In this document: piece by piece, positions 6,056 to 64,000 of the stretch
How the letters are laid out: every line of letters begins with the position of its first letter
Position numbering within the stretch: the stretch's first letter is position 1
Source: Phymorhynchus buccinoides
Lineage: Eukaryota; Mollusca; Gastropoda; Neogastropoda; Raphitomidae
NCBI GenBank assembly: GCA_017654935.2
Contig: CM065710.1
Span: 28,864,334 to 28,928,333, forward strand
Direction: 5' to 3'
Length of the DNA stretch: 64,000 bases
The notes under the pieces: model-generated
Databases searched by the model: none
Seen by the model: the letters and a program-made list of their open reading frames with translations, nothing else
Told to the model about the DNA's origin: nothing
Made by a program: the position numbers and the translations under genes

Positions 6056-6700
6056 AGTGTGAATATTTTGTACCAAATGATTGTGTACATGGGCATGTTT
6101 TGCTTGCTATATAAAAGTGTGAATATTTTGTACCAAATGATTGTGAACATGGGCATGTTTTGCTTGCTATGTAAAAGTGAATATTTTGTACCAAATTATT
6201 GTGTACATGGGCATGTTTTGCTTGCTATATAAAAGTGAATATTTTGTACCAAATGATTGTGTACATGGGCATGTTTTGCTTGCTATATAAAAGTGAATAT
6301 TTTGTACCAAATGATTGTGTACATGGGCATGTTTTGCTTGCTATATAAAAGTGTGAATATTTTGTACCAAATGATTGTGTACATGGGCATGTTTTGCTTG
6401 CTATATAAAAGTGTGAATATTTTGTACCAAATGATTGTGTACATGGGCATGTTTTGCTTGCTATATAAAAGTGTGAATATTTTGTACCAAATGATTGTGT
6501 ACATGGGCATGTTTTGCTTGCTATATAAAAGTGAATATTTTGTACCAAATGATTGTGAACATGGGCATGTTTTGCTTGCTATGTAAAAGTGAATATTTTG
6601 TACCAAATTATTGTGTACATGGGCATGTTTTGCTTGCTATGTAAAAGTGAATATTTTGTACCAAATTATTGTGTACATGGGCATGTTTTGCTTGCTAAAG
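6056..6700 (+). repeat. 58/60-bp minisatellite, about 11 units
   Basis: Tandem units each containing GAATATTTTGTACCAAATGA, TTGTGTACATGGGCATG and TTTTGCTTGCTATATAAAA. Units of 58 and 60 bp alternate by presence or absence of one TG. The array ends in a decayed unit near 6700. The 60-bp period is divisible by three, so reading frames cross it by chance; I do not call a protein. Confidence 0.95.
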
Positions 6701-15400: not shown

Positions 15401-17253
15401 GATCAGATGCCAAAGGAAAGGGAGAACATAAAGAGACTAAAAGAAGAATTGAAACTCAGAAAAGAACGGGGAGGGGACCAACATCTCATAAACTACAGAG
15501 AAGGGAAAATTGTGGTCAGGCAGGCGAAATCAGACAGAAACACAGTAGACTGAAGACAAAACGCCCTCTTGTGCATCAGCTCAGGCTGCAGCCGAGAAAG
15601 GGGCTGACAAGACCGACCAACATTGACCCAAGGAAGGGACACACACTGTACATAATGTCAATAATCCTGTTTGTCGTGAAAGTGTTTCTAGTTCATTTTC
15701 TAATTCTTCTTGTGCTTTTGAAGATTGTTGCAAAGTTATGTACAGTAATGTTGATAGCTTATTAAATAAAAAAGATGAATTACTTGTAAGATTATCTGAT
15801 GTAACAGTAAATCCAAATTTAATCTGTTTGACAGAAATTCTTCCTAAAAACCAAGTCTATTCGATTATTTTCGTCAGAATCAAAGATTTATGATTTAAGA
15901 AACAAAACAACTGCTTGAAGCGCTACGAACTTGGCATTAAACGGTCGCCATTTTTACGGGAATTCCCCATGGTTTACGGCAACACTGATCGGCGACGCTG
16001 AATTTAGAGGGTTTACGTTTGTTTTTCCTTGCTGATTATTTTTATTTTTTCTAACGTTTTGTGGCATGAAAATAATCCTAAGCTGATTCTAACCCTATCC
16101 CTTACCCAATGAAGTACAAAAGTTGAGCGGAAAAAAGCTGCAATTTTGGATACGCTCGTGGGATTTAACACACACACAAAATCAAGAAAACATAAAAATT
16201 GAAGAAATCTAGACTCTAATTTTTGGGAGGTAAGGATAGGCCCTATTTTATGCATGTCACAGAAGAATCCCCAATATTGCAGACAGAATGTTTTCTCTAC
16301 CAGATGGAAAGTTTTTAGCTGAAAAATGGCTGGCGTTGAAAGGGTAAAAGTTAAAACAGCAGATCCCCACTGAGTTTTAAAACCCTGTTAAGTGTTATGC
16401 TGTATTTCTCTCTTATCTGTCATCTCTTTTCCTGCTTTCATTCATGTTTCTTCTCGGGTTTACTAGCCTAGTTACTCCCAGTCCCAGCATATATTATATG
16501 TGGTTGAACCTCCCCGGTTCCAAGACATAATAATCAGCCGTGGATTGTGGCCACGCATCAAGAAGAAGAAGAAGACCAGGCGTATGAAAAAGATAGTGAG
16601 CTTTATATGAATTTATCGTTTGTTTCTTCAGAAGTGACAGATTTCTCAACCCCCAAAGAAATGATCATGAGGCGCATTTTCACACATTTAATATTGAATT
16701 TGTCAGCACTTAACCGTGCCAACACTTAATCTTTGCACCACGATGATTTAACACCCCATGTCACTAAAAAGCATCAAACCAGGTTCTGTTATCCAAAGAC
16801 CCTATTCTCTTCATTTTCGGAGGTGGGGATATAAGGCCTTACTTTAAATATGACATAGAGGAATCCCCAATATTACAGACAGATTTTTTTCTCTGCCCAG
16901 GTACGTAAGCTTAATGGATTTTTTTTGATGAAAAACGGCTGGCGGCGAAAGGGTTAAACAGGTTCAAAAGGTGATGTCACTCGTGTCATTGCGTAACAAA
17001 TATTTGTGTGTGTGTGTGTGTTTCAGAACCTGCCGTTTGACATCAGCAACCAGTACAAGCTGACCCTGTACTTCGCCCTGTTCTTCTCCAGCGGCTTTAT
17101 ATGTCCTGTGTATCAACATGTGTGTGTGTGTTTCAGAACCTGCCGTTTGACATCAGCAACAGGTACAAGCTGACCCTGTACTTCGCCCTGTTCTTCTCCA
17201 GCGGCTTTACGGCGCCCTTTTTGCTGGTGCGACACCAGATCCTGAAGAAGTGA
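12382..17253 (+). CDS. COX7C: Cytochrome c oxidase subunit 7C, mitochondrial (spliced)
   Basis: Small nuclear-encoded, single-helix subunit of respiratory complex IV in the inner mitochondrial membrane. Coding exons are 12382-12477 (32 codons) and 17137-17253 (38 codons plus TGA), joined in phase 0, giving 70 residues; animal COX7C precursors are typically a little over 60. The N-terminus is an Arg/Ser-rich, acid-poor presequence (RLSRNFSTSAVVRS). The mature part starts near GIPGANLPFDISNRYK and contains the hydrophobic helix LTLYFALFFSSGFTAPFLL and the family-typical ending LVRHQILKK. The donor is GCA|gtatgt and the acceptor gtttcag|AAC. A third, non-coding exon is at 19905 onward, with AATAAA at 20090-20095. 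The start is the first ATG, preceded by a plausible short 5' UTR from about 12330. Odd feature: a partial duplicate of exon 2 lies directly upstream of the real one. Confidence 0.9.
12478..13229. other. COX7C intron 1, first part: nothing recognised
   Basis: Intronic DNA with no coding signal and no repeat that I can match elsewhere in the window. Confidence 0.5.
13230..13560 (-). repeat. Dispersed repeat, copy 1
   Basis: Contains GACGGTCGCCGC, TAACTGTTACGCCAAAAGG, GCTCTTGTCTGATTGGT and ACCGTTTTTGCCGATTTG. The same words appear in inverse order and strand at 39125-39440, where the unit sits inside another TIR element. It has inverted-repeat character; no coding capacity seen. Confidence 0.65.
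13561..14418. other. COX7C intron 1, second part: no gene
   Basis: Contains GGGACCCCC-rich stretches at 13865-14080 repeated imperfectly (CCCAGGGACCCC, TGGGACCCTCTA). No coding sequence recognised. Confidence 0.5.
14419..14971 (-). mobile_element. piggyBac-like element, internally deleted
   Basis: Bounded by TTAACTCTTCTACTACC (left) and the inverse of TTAACTCTTCTGCTGCC (right), so TTAA duplicates flank inverted terminal repeats, the piggyBac signature. At 553 bp it is far shorter than an autonomous element. It still contains the start of a transposase reading frame on the minus strand (14719 to 14522), so its 5' end is at 14971. Confidence 0.8.
14522..14719 (-). pseudogene. N-terminal remnant of a piggyBac-like transposase
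   Basis: 65-codon frame starting METDDDFWRELLQDG, followed by DDEAFTGFTVEEV. Acidic N-termini with an FxGF motif are usual in piggyBac-type (PGBD) transposases, whose DDD catalytic core follows later; that core is missing here. The placement inside TTAA-flanked terminal repeats supports the call. It cannot be an active transposase. Confidence 0.6.
15060..15870 (+). pseudogene. CR1-like LINE fragment: ORF1 region and start of endonuclease
   Basis: 15128-15392 reads ANLPESELETAEKRK, then DDPVRLGAVRIGKEAKPRLL and LTVKREDTKKKMRNV, the style of LINE ORF1 RNA-binding proteins. A shifted frame continues with KLRKERGGDQHLINYREGK. Around 15735-15845 SNVDSLLNKKDELLVRLSD followed by NLICLTEIL matches the N-terminal part of an APE-type endonuclease, as does the copy near 23070. 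Several frameshifts and stops are present and the rest is missing. Confidence 0.65.
15871..16979. other. COX7C intron 1, last part: TTAA-element relics
   Basis: Two degenerate copies of the family-7 element: 16180-16346 (CCCCAATATTGCAGACAG, ending GGCGTTGAAAGGGT) and 16735-16958 (ACCACGATGATTTAACACC, ending GGCGGCGAAAGGGTTAA). Around 16530-16575 is GATTGTGGCCACGCATC with an AAG tail, also seen near 42010. No gene. Confidence 0.55.
17009..17118 (+). pseudogene. COX7C: Tandem partial duplicate of COX7C exon 2 with its acceptor
   Basis: The TG-rich tract, tttcag acceptor and first 73 bases of the exon (17027-17099, to GGCTTTA) are repeated 110 bp further on at 17137-17209. Only one codon differs (CAG here, AGG there). 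This copy lacks the exon's end and has no good donor; 110 is not a multiple of three, so reading through it hits TGA at 17171-17173. The downstream copy must be the functional exon. Confidence 0.85.
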
Positions 17254-30468: not shown

Positions 30469-46523
<16,055 letters not shown>

Positions 46524-54865: not shown

Positions 54866-54902
54866 GTTAAAGTCATACCAGTACACTTTTTATAACCATG
54901 GC

Positions 54903-54995
54903 TGTGAGTTGGCACTCGGAATGAGCGATGCGGGAGCAACGTCACTGTAGGGCACAGAAGATAAGACAGCTAAGAAAAAAACACTTTTGTAGACA
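54903..54995. repeat. Dispersed repeat shared with 61865-61950
   Basis: GCTGTGAGTTGGCACTCGGA and ATGAGCGATGCGGGAGCAAC against GCTGCGAGTTGGGACTCGGA and ATGAGCGGCGTGGGAGCAAC. Confidence 0.7.
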
Positions 54996-55151: not shown

Positions 55152-55250
55152 ATGGCTTCTTCTGCTACAAGTCACATTGCTTTCAACATTTTGATTTTGT
55201 GTGGTTTAATCAGATATCTGACAATATGTTGTTATAGCCATAGTGGATAA
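55152..55250 (+). CDS. Gene B putative signal peptide, out of frame with exon body
   Basis: MASSATSHIAFNILILCGL and then IRYLTICCYSHSG before TAA at 55248. The hydrophobic core and position match a signal peptide. The downstream body is open in the next frame from about 55243 and has no good ATG of its own at its start. Confidence 0.45.
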   Translation: MASSATSHIAFNILILCGLIRYLTICCYSHSG

Positions 55251-58200
55251 ACAAACGCACGGTTCACAACAGCCTCGTAAAATAGTGCTGGGTTTCTTCC
55301 ATCAGTCTAATTCAACGAATACTGAGAAAACACATGAGAATTCACAAACGTTCTCTTCAGATACAAACACAACACCACTAAGCACCGTCCAGCAATCGGG
55401 TGAAACATTTGGGACATCAGACTTTCTTCATGCGTTGCAGCCCTCAAAAGTTAATCATGTACCACTGCCAGATAAATACCTGGAGACTCTCCAGAAGACA
55501 TACATCAGACGTAAAAGAGAGCAGTTCAACGGAAAAACCATTGTACAAACGGCCGACATGTTGGACTGTATGTTTTCTGGAAGCAGGAGACTGGAATTTG
55601 CGGTATCTAGCAACATCACAGTTCGTTTTAACACATTACACGTCAACATTAGCCGGGCGATAAAAAAGTTACATTGCCTTCTTGTCTTCTGCTTGGGAAG
55701 GTGGGAGCCAGCCAGCAAAGCCTTGCACGTGCATTTTCACCACCAGACTTGCACATTTACAAACTCCATTCACATCCAAGAGAAATATGACATCCACAGT
55801 TCAACTGTTCCTGGTTCAAAAATAGCCTGCGAGAACCGCGTCACGTGGACAGGATGTGAGCCAGACTATGATCCCCAGCCTGAGTATGTAGTGCGAGAGA
55901 AATCCGTTCATATCAAGTTGCAGGTGAATGACTTCAGTGAAGATTACCGCGTGGCCTTGTCTGTTATTTCGCAAGTTAACAAGCCTCCTAAGCGACAGCT
56001 GGAAGTTGTTTACGTATCACTGACAGGAGGTATGTCTAAATTCTGCGTTTGGGTAGTAATGGACAACTGGTTTTGCTTCTTGAAGTGATAACGGTCTATA
56101 AAAATGTCTTCTGGCATGCCTGTTCACATGTTCCATAATATATAATAATTATTATTTTGTGCTTGATCTTTGAAGGAAGCAAATCTTATTATCTCGGGCC
56201 TGGTTAACGCTGGGATATCATTATGAAAGGAAGCGTAGAATACAGCCCTGTCATGCAGTCTCAGACCGATACGGAACTCCATAGCATCATCATCATCATC
56301 ATAGTCATCCGCCTCATTTCCATCAATCATTAAAAAAAGGACAGAAAAAAGCCTCAAATTCTGTGGCTTTGCGACAACAACAAAAATCTTATTACAGATC
56401 AAGTAAAATGAAAGAGAGAAAAAATCTGTTTAACGTCCTCTGGTCTGTAACAGACACGCATGGGACATTAGTAGATGTAAAGATGGTGGGAACGATCCTG
56501 GAGGCAATGCCCGGAGGCAGTGCAACACCAGTAAAGTCCCGATTTTTTTTTAACAATACAGATAGGTGTAGCAGTAACCACGCCTCGGTTAAACCTCATC
56601 GGCTAGAAGAAGAAAGGTGTTTTACGCCCTCTCGGTCTGGAACAGACACATATGGGACATTTGTAGATACAAAGATGGTGGGAACAATACTGGAGGCAAT
56701 GCCCGGAGGCAGTGCAACACCAGTAAAGTCCCGATTTTTTTTAACAATACAGATAGGTGTAGCAGTAACCACGCCTCGGTTAAACCTCTTCAGCTATTAT
56801 TTTATTTTGCCCAAACGGTAAGCCATATAAATGTTATCTCAGTGAATCAGATTTGAATATTACAAAGACGCTGATAATTTCAAAGATAATAGATGGATGC
56901 AAACCAAAATATGCATGGTGAAAAAGTGTCAGAAATGAAATGTTTATTTTTTATTGTGTACATTTTTTATGTAATTACTCCGATACAGATACAGGATTTA
57001 AAAACAAAAAACAAAAACAGACTCGCAATAACCCAAGAGTAAAAATTATCTCCCTTCACTTTTTTCAGTCACTGGGAGTAGAGTTTATTTACATTATGGC
57101 TCTGCCATCTTGACATGCTGAATGAGGCTTTATACTGAAAATTATTAGCCCCTTTCTCGTGCACCGAGATGCGTGCGCCATCTACATAAGATTATCGTCC
57201 TTGCCTGTCATGAAGTAGTAGTTTATAGCCACAGAAAATTATCTGCTCCTGACTCATCACCAGGTGGCATAGGTAGTTCAGGCCTAAAATTACCGCCCCT
57301 TCGTGTCGGCAAGGAGTAGTACAAAGCCCCATTAAAATGGTGTGTTTTGTTGACTGTATTGTGCTTGCATGAGACCAAGTTTGTAATTTCTCTTAACGAG
57401 CTAATAAAGTATTTTTGACTTTGACTTTGACTTTGTTCCTTTGTGTTTTTAGGGTTCGTCCAGACAGCAGGGTTCAGCCCAGAATCTTTGATCTACAGAA
57501 ACTTTGGAAAAAAGCTCCAGAAAACCCAGCTTTCAGTTCCGCCCTCTCACAGTGTTATACTCAGCGATGTTCACGCTTACACAGACGAAAAAGTGACGCT
57601 CAGCCTTTATAGCTACCACAACTTCACTAAGACAATGATGTGGGCTGTGACGAGATGTCAGTACCCTCCCTTGCCGGACCTTTACAGCCAGATACAGTCA
57701 CTGGGCTTCGAGTTCAGAGACAGGTCTTCAACGAGAAGAAGAACATACTACAAGTCAGAATTTCACGTGAATTATGAAGATGACGGTTGGACTTCTGACT
57801 TCAGAATCATGTTTACCTTCCATTCAGTGAGGAGGGAGTGAGCTACATACTTTTTGTAGTCCCAGTTCTATAAGAACGGGACTACATTATGATGGGGATG
57901 AGGGCTGTGCGTTTCTTTGATGTATGTATGTATGTATGTATGTATGTATGTATGTATGTATGTATGTATGTATGTATGTATGTATGTATGTATGTATGTA
58001 TGTATGTATGTATGTATGTATGTATGTATGTATGTATAGTAAAATCATACTTTCACAACGTTTGGCACCACTCCTTGCAGACGAGCTTTGAGGTAGGACA
58101 CAATACATTCAGGAAATAACAACAAAGTGGATGATGTTGTTTAAAACACTTGTATTAAAAGTTGACAATATTTCGCTGTAGTCTACAGCTTTAACGAGTC

Positions 58201-58823: not shown

Positions 58824-61069
58824 CGTGTGCGTGCGCGCGTGCGTGCGTGCGTGCGCGCGCGCGTGCGTGTGTGTGTGCGCGCGCGTGCGTGCGTGCGTGC
58901 GTGCGTGTGTGTGTAAGTGCGTCTGTGTGTGACCAAATATGTTCCCCTTCATAGCGCCTAAAACATTGAACCGATCTGAACGAAACTTGGCAGAATGATT
59001 CCTTAGACCTTGCAGTTGCTGCACATCATGTAAGATTCACAGAACGACAAGGCAATCGCAATGAGAAAAAAAATTGAATATTAAAAACACATTGATTATT
59101 TAAAAGATAATGGGTGGATTTAAGCCAAAGTAAGTATGCAAAACAAGGGTTGCTTAATACTATTTTGTTGTTAAGTATCTTATTTCTAAACAATGCTACA
59201 TTAATACAGGAAATTATTAAACACAAAATATACACAATGACCATAGAGTCCAGAATTAACTCCCCTGAGTTTCATCCGTTGATCGTATTTGATGAAATTC
59301 GAGGGAGATCATTCTAAATTTACAAGTGGCATTTTCCCATTAATATTTGTGTGTGTCTGAAGGGGTAGTATAATGTGTGTGGGTGTTGCTGGTAACTGGG
59401 ACTACGTTTACATGGCGTTGCCATCTTGTTTTGTTATGTAGTATCCCCCATCTCTATGTGTCCACAAGTTAGTTTCTGTGTCCCCGTCTCTAAGTATCCG
59501 TGTCTCAGTGTGTCTCCATCTCTCTCTAAAAGTCCTCGTCTCTTATATGTGTCTTTGTCTCTATGTATTCCCGTCTCAGTGTGTCTCCATCTCTCTCTAA
59601 AAGTCGTCGTCTCTTTTAAAGTCAACTCCAGGGCACAGAAATCCTTCATCCCCAGATCCATCCACCTCCTAAACTCATGATCCTTTTAGGTTTAAATGTG
59701 TGCTCATCGTGTTAAAAGAAACTATGCATACTTATCCTTGTATGTATTCACATATAATGTGTATCTTTAAGTATGTATTATGTGTAACTTTTACTCCTAT
59801 TCATGCATGCTGGATGTCGATGTCTTTGTTATTCTGACACATGAACAAAATTTCTCCTTGGGAGATAATAAAGTGAATTTGATTTGATTTGATTTGATTT
59901 GATGTGTCTTTGTCTCTATATATCCCCGTCTCAGTGTGTCTCCATCTCTCTCTAAAAGTCCTCGTCTCTTATATGTATCTTCGTCTCTATGTATTCCCGT
60001 CTCTGTATGAAATTGGGACCAAAACATTATTATGAATTATTCGATTTGTAATGTGCGCAGTACCCGTTTTTTTGTAGTGAACCAGCTGGTTTCCAATTTT
60101 TTTTAATTTTTCAATCACAGAACCAGTCCAGCCCAGAAAAGCTGGGTGGTGGTAAATTATCCGAATTTTAATGTGTGCGATACCCGTTTTTGGAGTTCAA
60201 CAGCTGGTTTTTATTTTTTATTCAATCACAGAACCAGTCCAGCCCAGAAAAAGCTGGGTGGTGGTAAATTATCCGAATTTTAATGTGTGCGGTAACCGTT
60301 TTCTTTGTAGTTAACCAGTTGGTTTCCATGTTTTATTCCATCACAGAACCAGACCAGCCCAGAAAAAGCTGGGTGGTGGTAAATTATCCGAATTTTAATG
60401 TGTGCGGTAACCGTTTTCTTTGTAGTTAACCAGTTGGTTTCCATGTTTTATTCAATCACAGAACCAGTCCAGCCCAGAAAAAGCTGGGTGGTGGTAAATT
60501 ATCCGAATTTTAATGTGTGCGGTACCCGTTTTCTTTGTAGTTAACCAGTTGGTTTCCATGTTTTATTCAATCACAGAACCAGTCAGCCTGGAAAAACTGG
60601 GTGGTGGTAAATTATCCGAATTGTAATGTGTGCGGTACCCGTTTTTGAGTTAGTTAGCTGGTTGCTTAGACTGTATCTAATCACAGAAGCAGTCCAGCCC
60701 GGAAAAGCTGGCCGGTGGTCAGTGGAACTGCTCGGTACCTCACTGGCCCCAGTTCCAGCCCCACCTTGCCTGCAACCTGAGAGTGCAGTGCTCTGGGGCA
60801 GAGGACGAGCAGCACTGCAGGCATCACGCCTGTGACCTGGGTCCTGGAGGATTCACCATCGATGACCACCGATGCCTGGTGCTGGTCCGACCACAAGGAG
60901 TGATCAGTCACAACCTGGCCAGAAAAAAGTGCCAGAATCTGGGAGGTTACTTAGTCTCCTTGACCTCCGTTGAAGAACTTGACGCTTTGAAAAGCGTGCT
61001 GTGGCCACGCAACCGCAGGTTCAGAGTATACGTAGGGCTCGAGCGTGAGTGGAACAAGGCTAATCCTAT
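55152..61069 (+). CDS. Receptor gene B: paralogue of gene A, 5' part only
   Basis: Exons recognised are 55152/55243-56029, 57453-57826 and 60687-61069, in phases 1, 0 and 2, the same as gene A. They encode a signal peptide-like start, two CUB-like domains, an LDLa module and the first half of a C-type lectin domain. Later exons (rest of lectin, LDLa, LRR, helices) would lie beyond the window. It is on the same strand about 8.6 kb downstream of gene A, so the pair arose by tandem duplication. Odd points: the putative signal peptide frame (from 55152) is one base out of register with the exon body, and both ends of the third exon are flanked by tandem arrays made of its own splice sites. It could be a pseudogene, or the shift could be a sequence error. 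Confidence 0.7.
55243..56029 (+). CDS. Gene B exon 1 body: first CUB-like domain
   Basis: Frame from VDKQTHGSQQPRKIVLGFF to VYVSLTGG, donor GGAG|gtatgt, phase 1. Ser/Thr/Asn-rich spacer, then LDCMFSGSRRLEFAVSSNI, CLLVFCLGRWEPASKALHVH and HHQTCTFTNSIHIQEKY. Cysteine spacing and strand pattern follow gene A exon 1. Confidence 0.75.
56030..57452. other. Gene B intron 1: repeats
   Basis: 56185-56360 (TATCATTATGAAAGGAAGCG, ATAGCATCATCATC) recurs at 61361-61510. 56415-56800 is a two-unit tandem repeat of about 188 bp containing GATGGTGGGAACRATMCTGG and CGGAGGCAGTGCAACACCAG. 57390-57435 is a LINE-type tail, TAATAAAGTATTTTTGACTT with TTTGAC repeats. No coding sequence. Confidence 0.7.
57453..57826 (+). 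CDS. Gene B exon 2: second CUB-like domain
   Basis: Acceptor gtgtttttag|GGT, phase 1 in; donor CATTCA|gtgagg, phase 0 out. FVQTAGFSPESLIYRNFGKK, VILSDVHAYTDEKVTLSLYS and FRIMFTFHS align with gene A exon 2. Confidence 0.85.
57919..58036. repeat. (TATG)n microsatellite
   Basis: Uninterrupted TATG/ATGT repeat beginning about 90 bp after the gene B exon 2 donor. Confidence 0.95.
58103..58696. mobile_element. Near-identical inverted repeat, ~255-bp arms
   Basis: The left arm (from CATTCAGGAAATAACAACAA to AAGTCTCACACGCACACACT) is matched by its inverse at 58440-58696 with only about three or four mismatches. The loop (about 58360-58440) is TG/CA-rich. The right end abuts another TATG tract. No coding capacity; a foldback element or a recent inverted duplication. 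Confidence 0.88.
58691..58920. repeat. (ATGT)n, (GT)n and (GC)n compound microsatellite
   Basis: ATGT repeats to 58757, then GT and GTGC/GCGC stretches to 58915. 58930-59420 shows no gene. Confidence 0.93.
59500..60010 (+). repeat. ~74-bp minisatellite split by a LINE 3' fragment
   Basis: Units contain TCCATCTCTCTCTAAAAGTC, CGTCTCTTATATGT and GTCTCTATGTATTCCCGTCT. Two to three units lie before 59620 and two after 59900. Confidence 0.8.
59620..59902 (+). pseudogene. LINE 3' fragment (C-terminal codons, 3' UTR, TTTGA tail)
   Basis: NSRAQKSFIPRSIHLLNS ends at TGA near 59680, the usual last residues of many LINE reverse transcriptases. The 3' UTR ends AGATAATAAAGTGAATTTG with repeats of ATTTG. 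It is inserted in the surrounding minisatellite. Confidence 0.7.
60030..60686 (+). repeat. ~115-bp tandem repeat carrying copies of the gene B exon 3 acceptor
   Basis: Exon-like starts follow ATCACAG at 60121, 60232, 60347, 60462 and 60577 (spacing 110-115), then the real exon at 60687. Each unit has ATCACAG|AACCAGTCCAGCC followed by CAGAAAAGCTGGGTGGTGGT, corresponding to the true ATCACAG|AAGCAGTCCAGCC and CGGAAAAGCTGGCCGGTGGT, then diverges into AAATTATCCGAATTTTAATG. Confidence 0.9.
60687..61069 (+). CDS. Gene B exon 3: LDLa and first half of the C-type lectin domain
   Basis: Phase 0 in, phase 2 out at CCTAT|gtaagtg. GGQWNCSVPHWPQFQPHLAC to EDEQHC is the LDLa, followed by the lectin start DDHRCLVLVRPQGVISHNLA, KKCQNLGGYLVSLTSVEELD, VYVGLEREWNKANP. 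It aligns to gene A exon 3 over its whole length, including the junction position. Confidence 0.85.
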
Positions 61070-61096
61070 GTAAGTGTTGGGAATAGTCAGGCAACT
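61051..61096 (+). other. Founder unit of the 46-bp satellite at the exon 3 donor
   Basis: GGAACAAGGCTAATCCTAT|gtaagtgttgggaatag, then tcaggcaactggg, spans the exon end and the start of the intron. The satellite units at 62072-64000 read GGAATAAGGCTMATCCTATG then TAAGTGTTGGGAATAGAAAG and RCAACT. Confidence 0.88.
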
Positions 61097-62071
61097 GGGC
61101 AAAGATGCAGATGAACACCCTCCTCTCCACACTTTCTAAGTTTTTTTCCGTTATTTCAATCTTACCTTTGTATTCTGCTATTAGCCAATGCATATTTTTA
61201 ATTGTTTAAATGGATGGACATTAGTGAAATTGAGAAAACTATGGGCTCAATGGGAAGACTGAAACCACGCAGTCGAGCTTCATCCGCTTTTAACGGATGC
61301 GATTCTGAGAGTGTTGCTCTAATTTCATGACCAACACTGCAGTGTCTGTATAATTCTCAGGCCTGGTTAACCCCGTGATATCATTATGAAAGGAAGCGTA
61401 GAATACACGCAGCTCTGTCACATAGTCTCATACCGATACGGAATTCCATAGCATCATCATCATCATCATCCGCCTTATTTCCGTCAATCACAAAAAAAGT
61501 CTCAAATTCTGTGGCCTTGAATGCCCTGCTCTCATGGTGACCTCAGTTTCGATTACCAATCCAGTTTATGCCCTTGGTGCGTTCGGGTCAAAGTCATGGG
61601 GATCAGTATGTTCTGGGGAGCTGTCGTTGGATGGATGTGGTGGCGCCGTCGGAGGAGGACCTCACTCACTCTGGCTCCGCGACTAAGATATTATTGTCGT
61701 CAGTAGGGGACTTAGTAGGTGGTGTCCTGAACAGGTTCAATTGAACTCCACCGAAGTGACTCAGCAGCAGTGCAGTGTCTCCTCAGATGGTTGCTCCTGA
61801 CGGCCTAACATAGATTCGCTCCCCTTGGTCTGCTGGTTTCGGATTCTGCGACCTGAACAAGCCTGGGTGTGGCTGCGAGTTGGGACTCGGAATGAGCGGC
61901 GTGGGAGCAACGCCACTATACAGCCCAGAAATTGGGACAGCAAAAAACAACAACAAACAACGAAATATAGAAAACAATAGAGGTTTAAGTGCTCAATCTG
62001 CAGTAAGAAAGGCAAGACTAAAAAATGGAAAGAACCGAAAAATGGAGGAGGAGGTGTTGATCTTCATCTTA
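61097..62071. other. Gene B intron 3, before the satellite: dispersed repeats
   Basis: 61361-61510 repeats 56185-56360 and 61865-61950 repeats 54903-54995. No coding sequence. Confidence 0.65.
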
Positions 62072-64000
62072 AAAGGCAACTGAAATAAGGATCATCCTAT
62101 GTAAGTGTTGGGATTAGAAAGACAACTGGAATAAGGCTCATCCTATGGAAGTGCTGGGAATAGATAGACAACTGGAATAAGGCTCATCCTATGTAAGTGT
62201 TGGGAATAGAAAGACAACTGGAATAAGGCTCATCCTATGTAAGTGTTGGGAATAGATAGACAACTGGAATAAGGCTCATCCTATGTAAGTGCTGGGAATA
62301 GATAGACAACTGGAATAAGGATCATCCTATGGAAGTGCTGGGAATAGATAGACAACTGGAATAAGGCTCATCCTATGTAAGTGTTGGGAATAGATAGACA
62401 ACTGGAATAAGGCTCATCCTATGTAAGTGTTGGGAATAGAAAGACAACTGGAATAAGGCTCATCCTATGTAAGTGTTGGGAATAGAAAGACAACTGGAAT
62501 AAGGCTCATCCTATGTAAGTGTTGGGAATAGAAAGACAGCTGGAATAAGGATCATCCTATGTAAGTGTTGGGAATAGAAAGACAACTGGAATAAGTATCA
62601 TCCTATGGAAGTGTTGGGAATAGAAAGACAACTGGAATAAGGATCATCCTATGTAAGTGCTGGGAATAGAAAGACAACTGTAATTAGGATCATCCTATGG
62701 AAGTGCTGGGAATAGATAGACAACTGTAATTAGGATCATCCTATGTACGCTTTGGGAATAGAAAGGCAACTGGTATAAGGCTAATCCTATGTAAGTGCTG
62801 GGAATAGAAAAGCAACTGGAATAAGGATCATCCTATGTAAGTGCTGGGAATAGAAAGACAACTGGAATAAGGCTAATCCCATGTAAGTGTTGGGAATAGA
62901 AAGACAGCTGGAATACGGCTAATCCTATGTCAGTGTTGGGAATAGAAAGGCAACTGGAATAAGGATCATCCTATGTAAGTGTTGGGAATAGAAAGGCAAC
63001 TGGAATAAGGCTAATCCTATGTACGTTTTGGGAATAGAAAGGCAACTGGAATAAGGCTAATCCTATGTAAGTGCTGGGAATAGATAGACAACTGGAATAA
63101 GGCTAATCTTATGTAAGTGCTGGGAATAGAAAGACAACTGGAATAAGGATCATCCTATGTAAGTGTTGGGAATAGAAAGACAACTGGAATAAGGCTAATC
63201 CTATGTAAGTGTTGGGAATAGAAAGACAACTGGAATAAGGCTAATCCTATGTAAGTGTTGGGAATAGAAAGGCAACTGGAATAAGGATCATCCTATGTAA
63301 GTGTTGGGAATAGAAAGGCAACTGGAATGAGGCTAATCCTATGTACGTTTTGGGAATAGAAAGGCAACTGGAATAAGGCTAATCCTATGTAAGTGCTGGG
63401 AATAGAAAGGCAACTTGGAATAAGGCTCATCCTATGGAAGTGTTGGGAATAGATAGACAACTGGAATAAGGATCATCCTATGTAAGTGCTGGGAATAGAA
63501 AGACAACTGGAATAAGGCTCATCCTATGTAAGTGCTGGGAATAGAAAGACAACTGGAATACAGATCATCCTATGTAAGTGTTGGGAATAGAAAGACAACT
63601 GGAATAAGGCTCATCCTATGTAAGTGTTGGGAATAGAAAGACAACTGGAATAAGGCTCATCCTATGTAAGTGTTGGGAATAGAAAGACAACTGGAATAAG
63701 GCTCATCCTATGTAAGTGTTGGGAATAGAAAGACAACTGGAATAAGGCTCATCCTATGTAAGTGTTGGGAATAGAAAGACAACTGGAATAAGGCTCATCC
63801 TATGTAAGTGTTGGGAATAGAAAGACAACTGGAATAAGGCTCATCCTATGTAAGTGTTGGGAATAGAAAGACAACTGGAATAAGGCTCATCCTATGTAAG
63901 TGTTGGGAATAGAAAGACAACTGGAATACAGATCATCCTATGTAAGTGTTGGGAATAGAAAGACAACTGGAATAAGGCTCATCCTATGTAAGTGTTGGGA
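62072..64000 (+). repeat. 46-bp satellite array of 5' splice-site units, about 42 copies, open at window end
   Basis: Period 46 bp. Each unit has CTGGAATAAGGCTMATCC, TATGTAAGTGTTGGGAATAG and AAAGRCAA. Most units keep TATGTAAGTG intact; I count about nine with a changed donor (five TATGGAAGTG, three with GTACG, one GTCAGTG). A variant with TATGTACGTTTTGGG recurs 321 bp apart (63022 and 63343), suggesting a seven-unit higher-order repeat. The last ~10 units are almost identical. The array continues past the window. Confidence 0.97.

Follow-up and report, generated by a model that had tools for sequence, protein, structure and literature searches.

A 46-bp tandem array spanning a 5' splice site in a GRL101-like receptor gene family of Phymorhynchus buccinoides

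The last part of the window (the whole 64,000-nucleotide stretch of DNA analysed here) is filled by a 46-bp tandem repeat whose unit joins the end of an exon to its 5' splice site, and this raises the question of how such an array came to lie in the intron of a receptor gene and whether its many donors have any role there. The explanation that we favour, and regard as likely, is that an ancestral splice junction was duplicated and that the resulting array has been inherited and resized as a nearly neutral sequence, with splicing taking place mainly from its first unit. The original prediction had taken as its null a neutral satellite arising by chance at a junction, and it is the reading that fits our results best.

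Anatomy of the array and its host gene

The features to which we refer are listed here with the evidence used to place them:

41531–41907, + strand: gene A paralogous C-type lectin domain (CTLD) exon, with the same phases as gene B exon 3 and donor GTAAGT
55222–56029, + strand: gene B exon 1 (putative start), from frame and junctions
57453–57826, + strand: gene B exon 2, from frame and junctions
60035–60719, + strand: 115-bp array from the exon 3 3' splice junction (TRF, BLAST self-comparison)
60687–61069, + strand: gene B exon 3, encoding the first half of the CTLD (open frame, Pfam Lectin_C)
61050–61095, + strand: unit 1 (the 'founder'), the last 20 exon and first 26 intron bases (BLAST self-comparison)
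61070–61076, + strand: predicted real 5' splice site GTAAGTG, unchanged in all 18 loci that have an intact exon
61102–62070, + strand: element of ~0.97 kb with terminal inverted repeats, separating unit 1 from the remaining array
62072–64000, + strand: 46-bp array (TRF, segmentation), continuing into Ns past the window end

TRF reports a period of 46 bp, 41.9 copies and 93% matches for 62072–64000, and segmentation divides the same stretch into 41 full units and a 42-base partial tail, in agreement with the ~42 copies noted earlier. The last base of the window is directly followed by 5,000 Ns, an assembly gap or a masked stretch, and both this number and the array length are accordingly lower bounds. 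The unit is made up of 20 exon bases, the donor GTAAGTG and 19 further intron bases, and all units are in the sense orientation; GTAAGT is kept in 32 of the 41 full later units and in the partial last one (33/42).

The homology between unit 1 and the array extends over 61050–61098, slightly wider than the 61051–61096 given for the founder in the original prediction, which was right that a single copy exists here. When scored against the array this copy reaches 43/49, compared with 18 for the best of 500 dinucleotide shuffles and 19 for the best of 2,400 other 49-mers taken from window positions 1–60000, so the match is far beyond chance and there is strong support for the derivation of the array from the end of gene B exon 3 and its donor. 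The founder should no longer be thought of as separate from the satellite: unit 2 directly follows unit 1 in 14 of the 20 loci described below, and we therefore read the founder as unit 1 and the gap in the window as a later insertion that severed it from the rest. We had also considered the 46-base TGG–TGG spacing at the founder as a birth mark of the array, and dropped this because, given the inserted element, the next unit begins with the second TGG.

The inserted element has arms at 61102–61129 and 62043–62070 that are 79% complementary, with an alignment score of 46 (the null 99% value is 22, and 1 in 2,000 random pairs scored equally high), and the arms are near perfect in loci L011 and L013. 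It is found at the same position in six loci of one clade (the window, L011, L012, L013, L014 and L024), in which the distance from unit 1 to the main array is about 1.0–1.6 kb (~0.97 kb in the window). A GGCAACTGG-like repeat flanks the element on both sides and is compatible with a target duplication, though a few unmatched bases precede the arms and the register of the array can mimic such a repeat. Two parts of this interval match window positions 54899–54983 and 56192–56371 (79–80%), and a relative lies in L017 in inverted orientation to the exon. In L011, L013 and L014 three copies of a unit joined to the left part of the element lie 3' of exon 3, ahead of the main array, which amounts to a further round of tandem duplication at this position. 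Elsewhere in the window we observed a 58-bp array at 6059–6697 (10.9 copies, 97% matches by TRF), and long open frames on the minus strand at 32436–36517 which by eye resemble a retroelement polyprotein.

Gene B exon 3 is 383 nt long, starts in phase 0, ends in phase 2 and matches Pfam Lectin_C (E=1e-05), and one solved CTLD aligns with it as far as residue 127 of 130, into the end of the exon. Exon 2 has no Pfam match; of the 17 other exon-bearing loci, 15 contain a stretch like it (54–100% identical) and 11 a stretch like exon 1 (67–88% identical). Pfam places the LDLa and LRR domains of gene B beyond the Ns, at L010:118–1881; this stretch aligns with residues 92–702 of the gene A LDLa-to-7TM frame (36%), and no 7tm_1 is reported in it at E 0.001. 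From their order and orientation the gene B exons, including the LDLa/LRR part past the Ns, probably belong to one transcript. A pattern search in six loci for the missing middle CTLD exon gave nothing convincing, and protein searches for outside homologues returned none at E <= 1.

Gene A, the distant paralog in the window, has a CTLD exon that is 33% identical to gene B exon 3, with the same start phase and the same phase-2 end. The open frames that follow it contain LDLa, LRR and 7tm_1 (rhodopsin-type 7TM) by Pfam, and the GRL101-like combination of CTLD, LDLa, LRR and 7TM is present in gene A, the CTLD being assigned by its similarity to that of gene B and the other three domains by Pfam, with the order and orientation of the exons again suggesting one transcript. 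TRF found no 46-bp array in the window at the gene A CTLD exon, which likewise ends in a phase-2 GTAAGT junction. The founder might itself have been a satellite-derived insertion into the exon, and the array-free junction of gene A supports instead an exon end that would be ancestral.

Distribution over the gene family and order of events

A genome-wide search with the 46-bp unit covering 2.12 Gb, in which all counts are lower bounds, gave at least 39 matches that we grouped into 21 arrays (contigs C31, C3279, C3190, C1987, C17 and C14), and we examined sequence from around every one of them. Twenty of these start in a paralogous exon 3 of the GRL101-like receptor family, within its last 20 bases, and 18 of the 20 exons are intact (window included) and 82–100% identical to the window exon at the protein level. 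The other two (L029 and L030 on C3190) are frameshifted and retain their arrays, and are either pseudogenes or poor sequence. The 21st array, the second in L017, is preceded by unrelated sequence and shares its terminal unit and intron with the others, and for this reason we read it as a truncated gene copy. The search of the whole genome, again as lower bounds, thus recovered the unit away from this locus in 19 further arrays with the same exon context and one with the same intron context, and none outside this gene family.

These results bear on the idea that a mobile or pre-existing satellite was inserted beside or into the exon, which would have been expected to appear at unrelated loci; all of the arrays recovered (at least 21) are found in the one family. 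The inverted-repeat element beside unit 1 in six loci could be taken as a trace of such an insertion, but 14 of the 20 arrays have no element between units 1 and 2, the exon end aligns as part of a CTLD, and the same phase-2 junction occurs free of an array in the distant paralog. We consider this origin extremely improbable.

Copy number varies widely among the paralogs, with arrays of about 4 units (L026–L028), 5, 8, 12, 19, 20, at least 42 and about 145 (L015/L016, the latter figure including 500 Ns). It should be noted that the arrays of the window, L012, L015 and L024 touch Ns and that their lengths are minima for this reason. The same terminal unit and intron sequence ends five of the six contiguous arrays examined; for L015 the terminal motif was not found in the stretch examined, which stops inside the array. 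The L012 exon (C3279) is identical to that of the window, and this may be the window locus assembled twice; exons are also identical between L013 and L014 and in other sets, such that the 18 intact exons comprise 12 different sequences. Such identity among loci means that the arrays are not 20 independent events, and the simplest reading is a single amplification that was inherited. Mean identity of units is 0.886 within arrays (0.783 to 0.971) and 0.857 between them, and homogenisation is therefore mild and in some arrays absent.

We constructed a tree of the 18 intact exons without the unit-1 bases, using a midpoint root for drawing, and this consisted of two clades of 6 and 12 exons (support 100/100). 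The 46-bp array is found in both clades, while only the clade containing the window has the 115-bp array and the element that follows unit 1. The 115-bp array repeats the 3' splice junction of exon 3 and provides five extra acceptors (last intron base at 60120, 60231, 60346, 60461 and 60576; the real one is at 60686). Its founder scores 42/79 against the array, compared with 16 for the best of 300 shuffles, and for all five of these acceptors an in-phase reading meets a stop within 11 to 23 codons. A 3'-junction array with a period of 108–115 bp is present in 6 of 6 loci of the window's clade and 0 of 12 of the other, and was also not found in L029 or L030. By parsimony this array would have arisen later than the 46-bp array, the alternative being loss. 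We also note a 110-bp tandem duplication at 17009–17209 of an acceptor and the start of the next exon (acceptors at 17026 and 17136), in a gene whose product resembles cytochrome c oxidase subunit 7C; this is the third splice-junction duplication in one window.

One exon-end variant suggested possible exchange between exon and array. The second-last complete codon of exon 3 (61062) encodes Asn in the window and L012 and His in the other 16 intact exons, and the A at unit position 13 that changes His to Asn occurs in 10 of the 41 later units of the window, so array–exon exchange is possible. Among the exon-end variants of the 18 intact loci, only that of the window (and of the near-identical L012) recurs in its own array, and we set gene conversion between exon and array aside as a weak candidate.

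All family members observed, the distant gene A exon apart, carry the array, and this could also mean retention by selection, though the members were found by an array-based search and are a biased sample. A more far-reaching reading would make receptor-family junctions preferred sites of amplification, both junctions of one exon having been amplified independently, with the donor array kept family-wide as a length-tunable control of mRNA dose; we regard this as improbable. Among the matches listed in our literature search, judged by titles and the beginnings of abstracts, there was no such array in molluscs or in GRL101 genes.

Conservation of the repeated donors and consequences for splicing

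It had been suggested that the array provides 30 or more near-consensus U1 sites and might act as a U1 sink, allow a free choice of donors, or buffer the long intron against early cleavage. The count is borne out by the 33 of 42 later window units with GTAAGT, compared with 15 such hexamers on the + strand of window positions 1–60000, and the uniform sense orientation would also suit a selected U1-binding platform. However, near-consensus is a generous description: the unit donor fails to match U1 at positions −3 and −1, and its duplex is predicted at −7.4 kcal/mol vs −14.1 kcal/mol for a consensus donor (only 2.8% of the 3,809 GTs in window positions 1–60000 reach −7.4 kcal/mol).

We measured variability in a set of 224 later units drawn from ten representative arrays (there are 298 in all 18), and also over the 104 distinct unit types. 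Mean variability among the 224 units is 0.127 for the donor hexamer, 0.067 for the exon part and 0.060 for the rest of the intron part, and among the distinct types the values are 0.077, 0.075 and 0.078, respectively. The hexamer ranks 44th (all units) or 25th (distinct types) in conservation of 46 circular windows, and GTAAGT is retained in 114 of the 224. Moreover, 52 of the 99 later units of L015 carry GTCAATG, for which the predicted U1 duplex is +0.7 kcal/mol with no stable pairing, and some paralogs have only about 4 units. The polyadenylation signal AATAAA occurs in 5 of the 298 later units of the 18 loci. The selective conservation of U1 sites by which a U1 platform or telescripting would be recognised is thus absent; the later donors are under no extra constraint compared with the rest of the unit, and on this ground we rejected a U1 function for them. 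A U1 sink or a buffer against premature cleavage is accordingly a very improbable reason for the array.

The unit-1 donor is GTAAGTG in all 18 loci with an intact exon, and in each of the 18 reading through the exon past unit 1 at once meets an in-frame TAA, which lies within this donor. Later donors therefore cannot give a longer receptor, which also argues against the free donor choice of the original prediction.

Under the reading that we prefer, an inherited and nearly neutral junction duplication, the array would go back to a tandem duplication of a 46-bp segment over the exon 3 5' splice site in an ancestral receptor gene with CTLD, LDLa and LRR domains. Replication slippage or unequal crossing-over may then have resized the arrays independently in the descendant copies, to between about 4 and about 145 units. 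The ancestor of the window's clade would subsequently have acquired a second array, formed from the 3' splice site, and the inverted-repeat element just after unit 1. The unit-1 donor is the one most likely to be spliced, and the remaining array would then be lost as part of the intron. If a later donor were used occasionally, the mRNA would gain a stop codon and be truncated or decayed, and by analogy with human ABCA7 the next exon might be skipped more often where the array is very long.

Comparison with known splice-junction repeats

The array is a splice-donor-spanning minisatellite, with unit 1 (61050–61095) containing the donor at 61070, and among known cases it comes closest to the VNTRs of human ABCA7 and CBS. 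The ABCA7 intron 18 VNTR has a 25-bp unit and alleles of a few hundred bases to 9.7 kb, and greater length goes with more exon 19 skipping and lower expression, an effect linked to disease risk (PMC5954066). Like the window array it is an exon-edge minisatellite that includes the real splice donor, but the ABCA7 unit, as described, opens with the donor GT and has no exon bases, in contrast to the 20 here; it is also a human polymorphism of a single gene with measured effects on RNA (PMC5954066).

This likeness in anatomy suggests that the array might be a splicing rheostat in which copy number sets the fraction of transcripts that skip the next exon, or that use a later donor and meet a stop, and so the dose of receptor. 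The wide copy-number range among paralogs, from about 4 to about 145 units, and the stop predicted from later donors are in keeping with this. However, use of the second donor in ABCA7, which leaves one unit in the transcript and brings a premature stop, was independent of array length, and it was only skipping that rose (PMC5954066); the later donors here also show no sign of maintenance. We think a rheostat unlikely.

The CBS 31-bp VNTR, c.1444_1467+7(16_21), has 24 exon and 7 intron bases by its coordinates and 16–21 copies, and is the nearest structural match as every unit contains the exon end and donor; CBS is a single gene, in contrast to the 46-bp unit found here in about 20 paralogs, in one clade of which arrays flank the exon on both sides (PMC2630376). 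A separate 68-bp duplication of the CBS intron 7/exon 8 junction, 844ins68, favours the distal of two sites (PMC2630376), and by this analogy use of the first site in the window array may not be a given, a point that counts against the reading that we prefer. The human MIR137 VNTR was set aside as a parallel because its alternative donors, as described, sit in the pre-miR-137 sequence, outside the repeat.

Recently duplicated human genes are reported to have internal tandem repeats at exon–intron boundaries with 30-bp units and an average of 4 repeats (PMC2812944). These are likewise variable minisatellites in groups of recent paralogs, but here the unit is 46 bp, there are up to about 145 copies and one homologous junction is involved (PMC2812944). 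The host gene architecture is shared with SudRes2 of Biomphalaria sudanica, a hard-to-assemble GRL101-like cluster of paralogs with CTL, LDLa, LRR and GPCR domains, and the part of the SudRes2 description available to us mentions no splice-site array (PMC12297450).

The family provides a natural series in which one donor-spanning array varies from about 4 to about 145 units over some twenty related genes of one genome, and the ABCA7 question of how donor-array length relates to splicing could be asked across these paralogs from a single set of RNA data. The series also indicates that a splice-site repeat can outlast gene duplication with its first donor intact and many of the others decayed. 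Compared with the ABCA7 and CBS repeats, the window array is unusual both in its spread over a gene family and in the amplification of both junctions of one exon.
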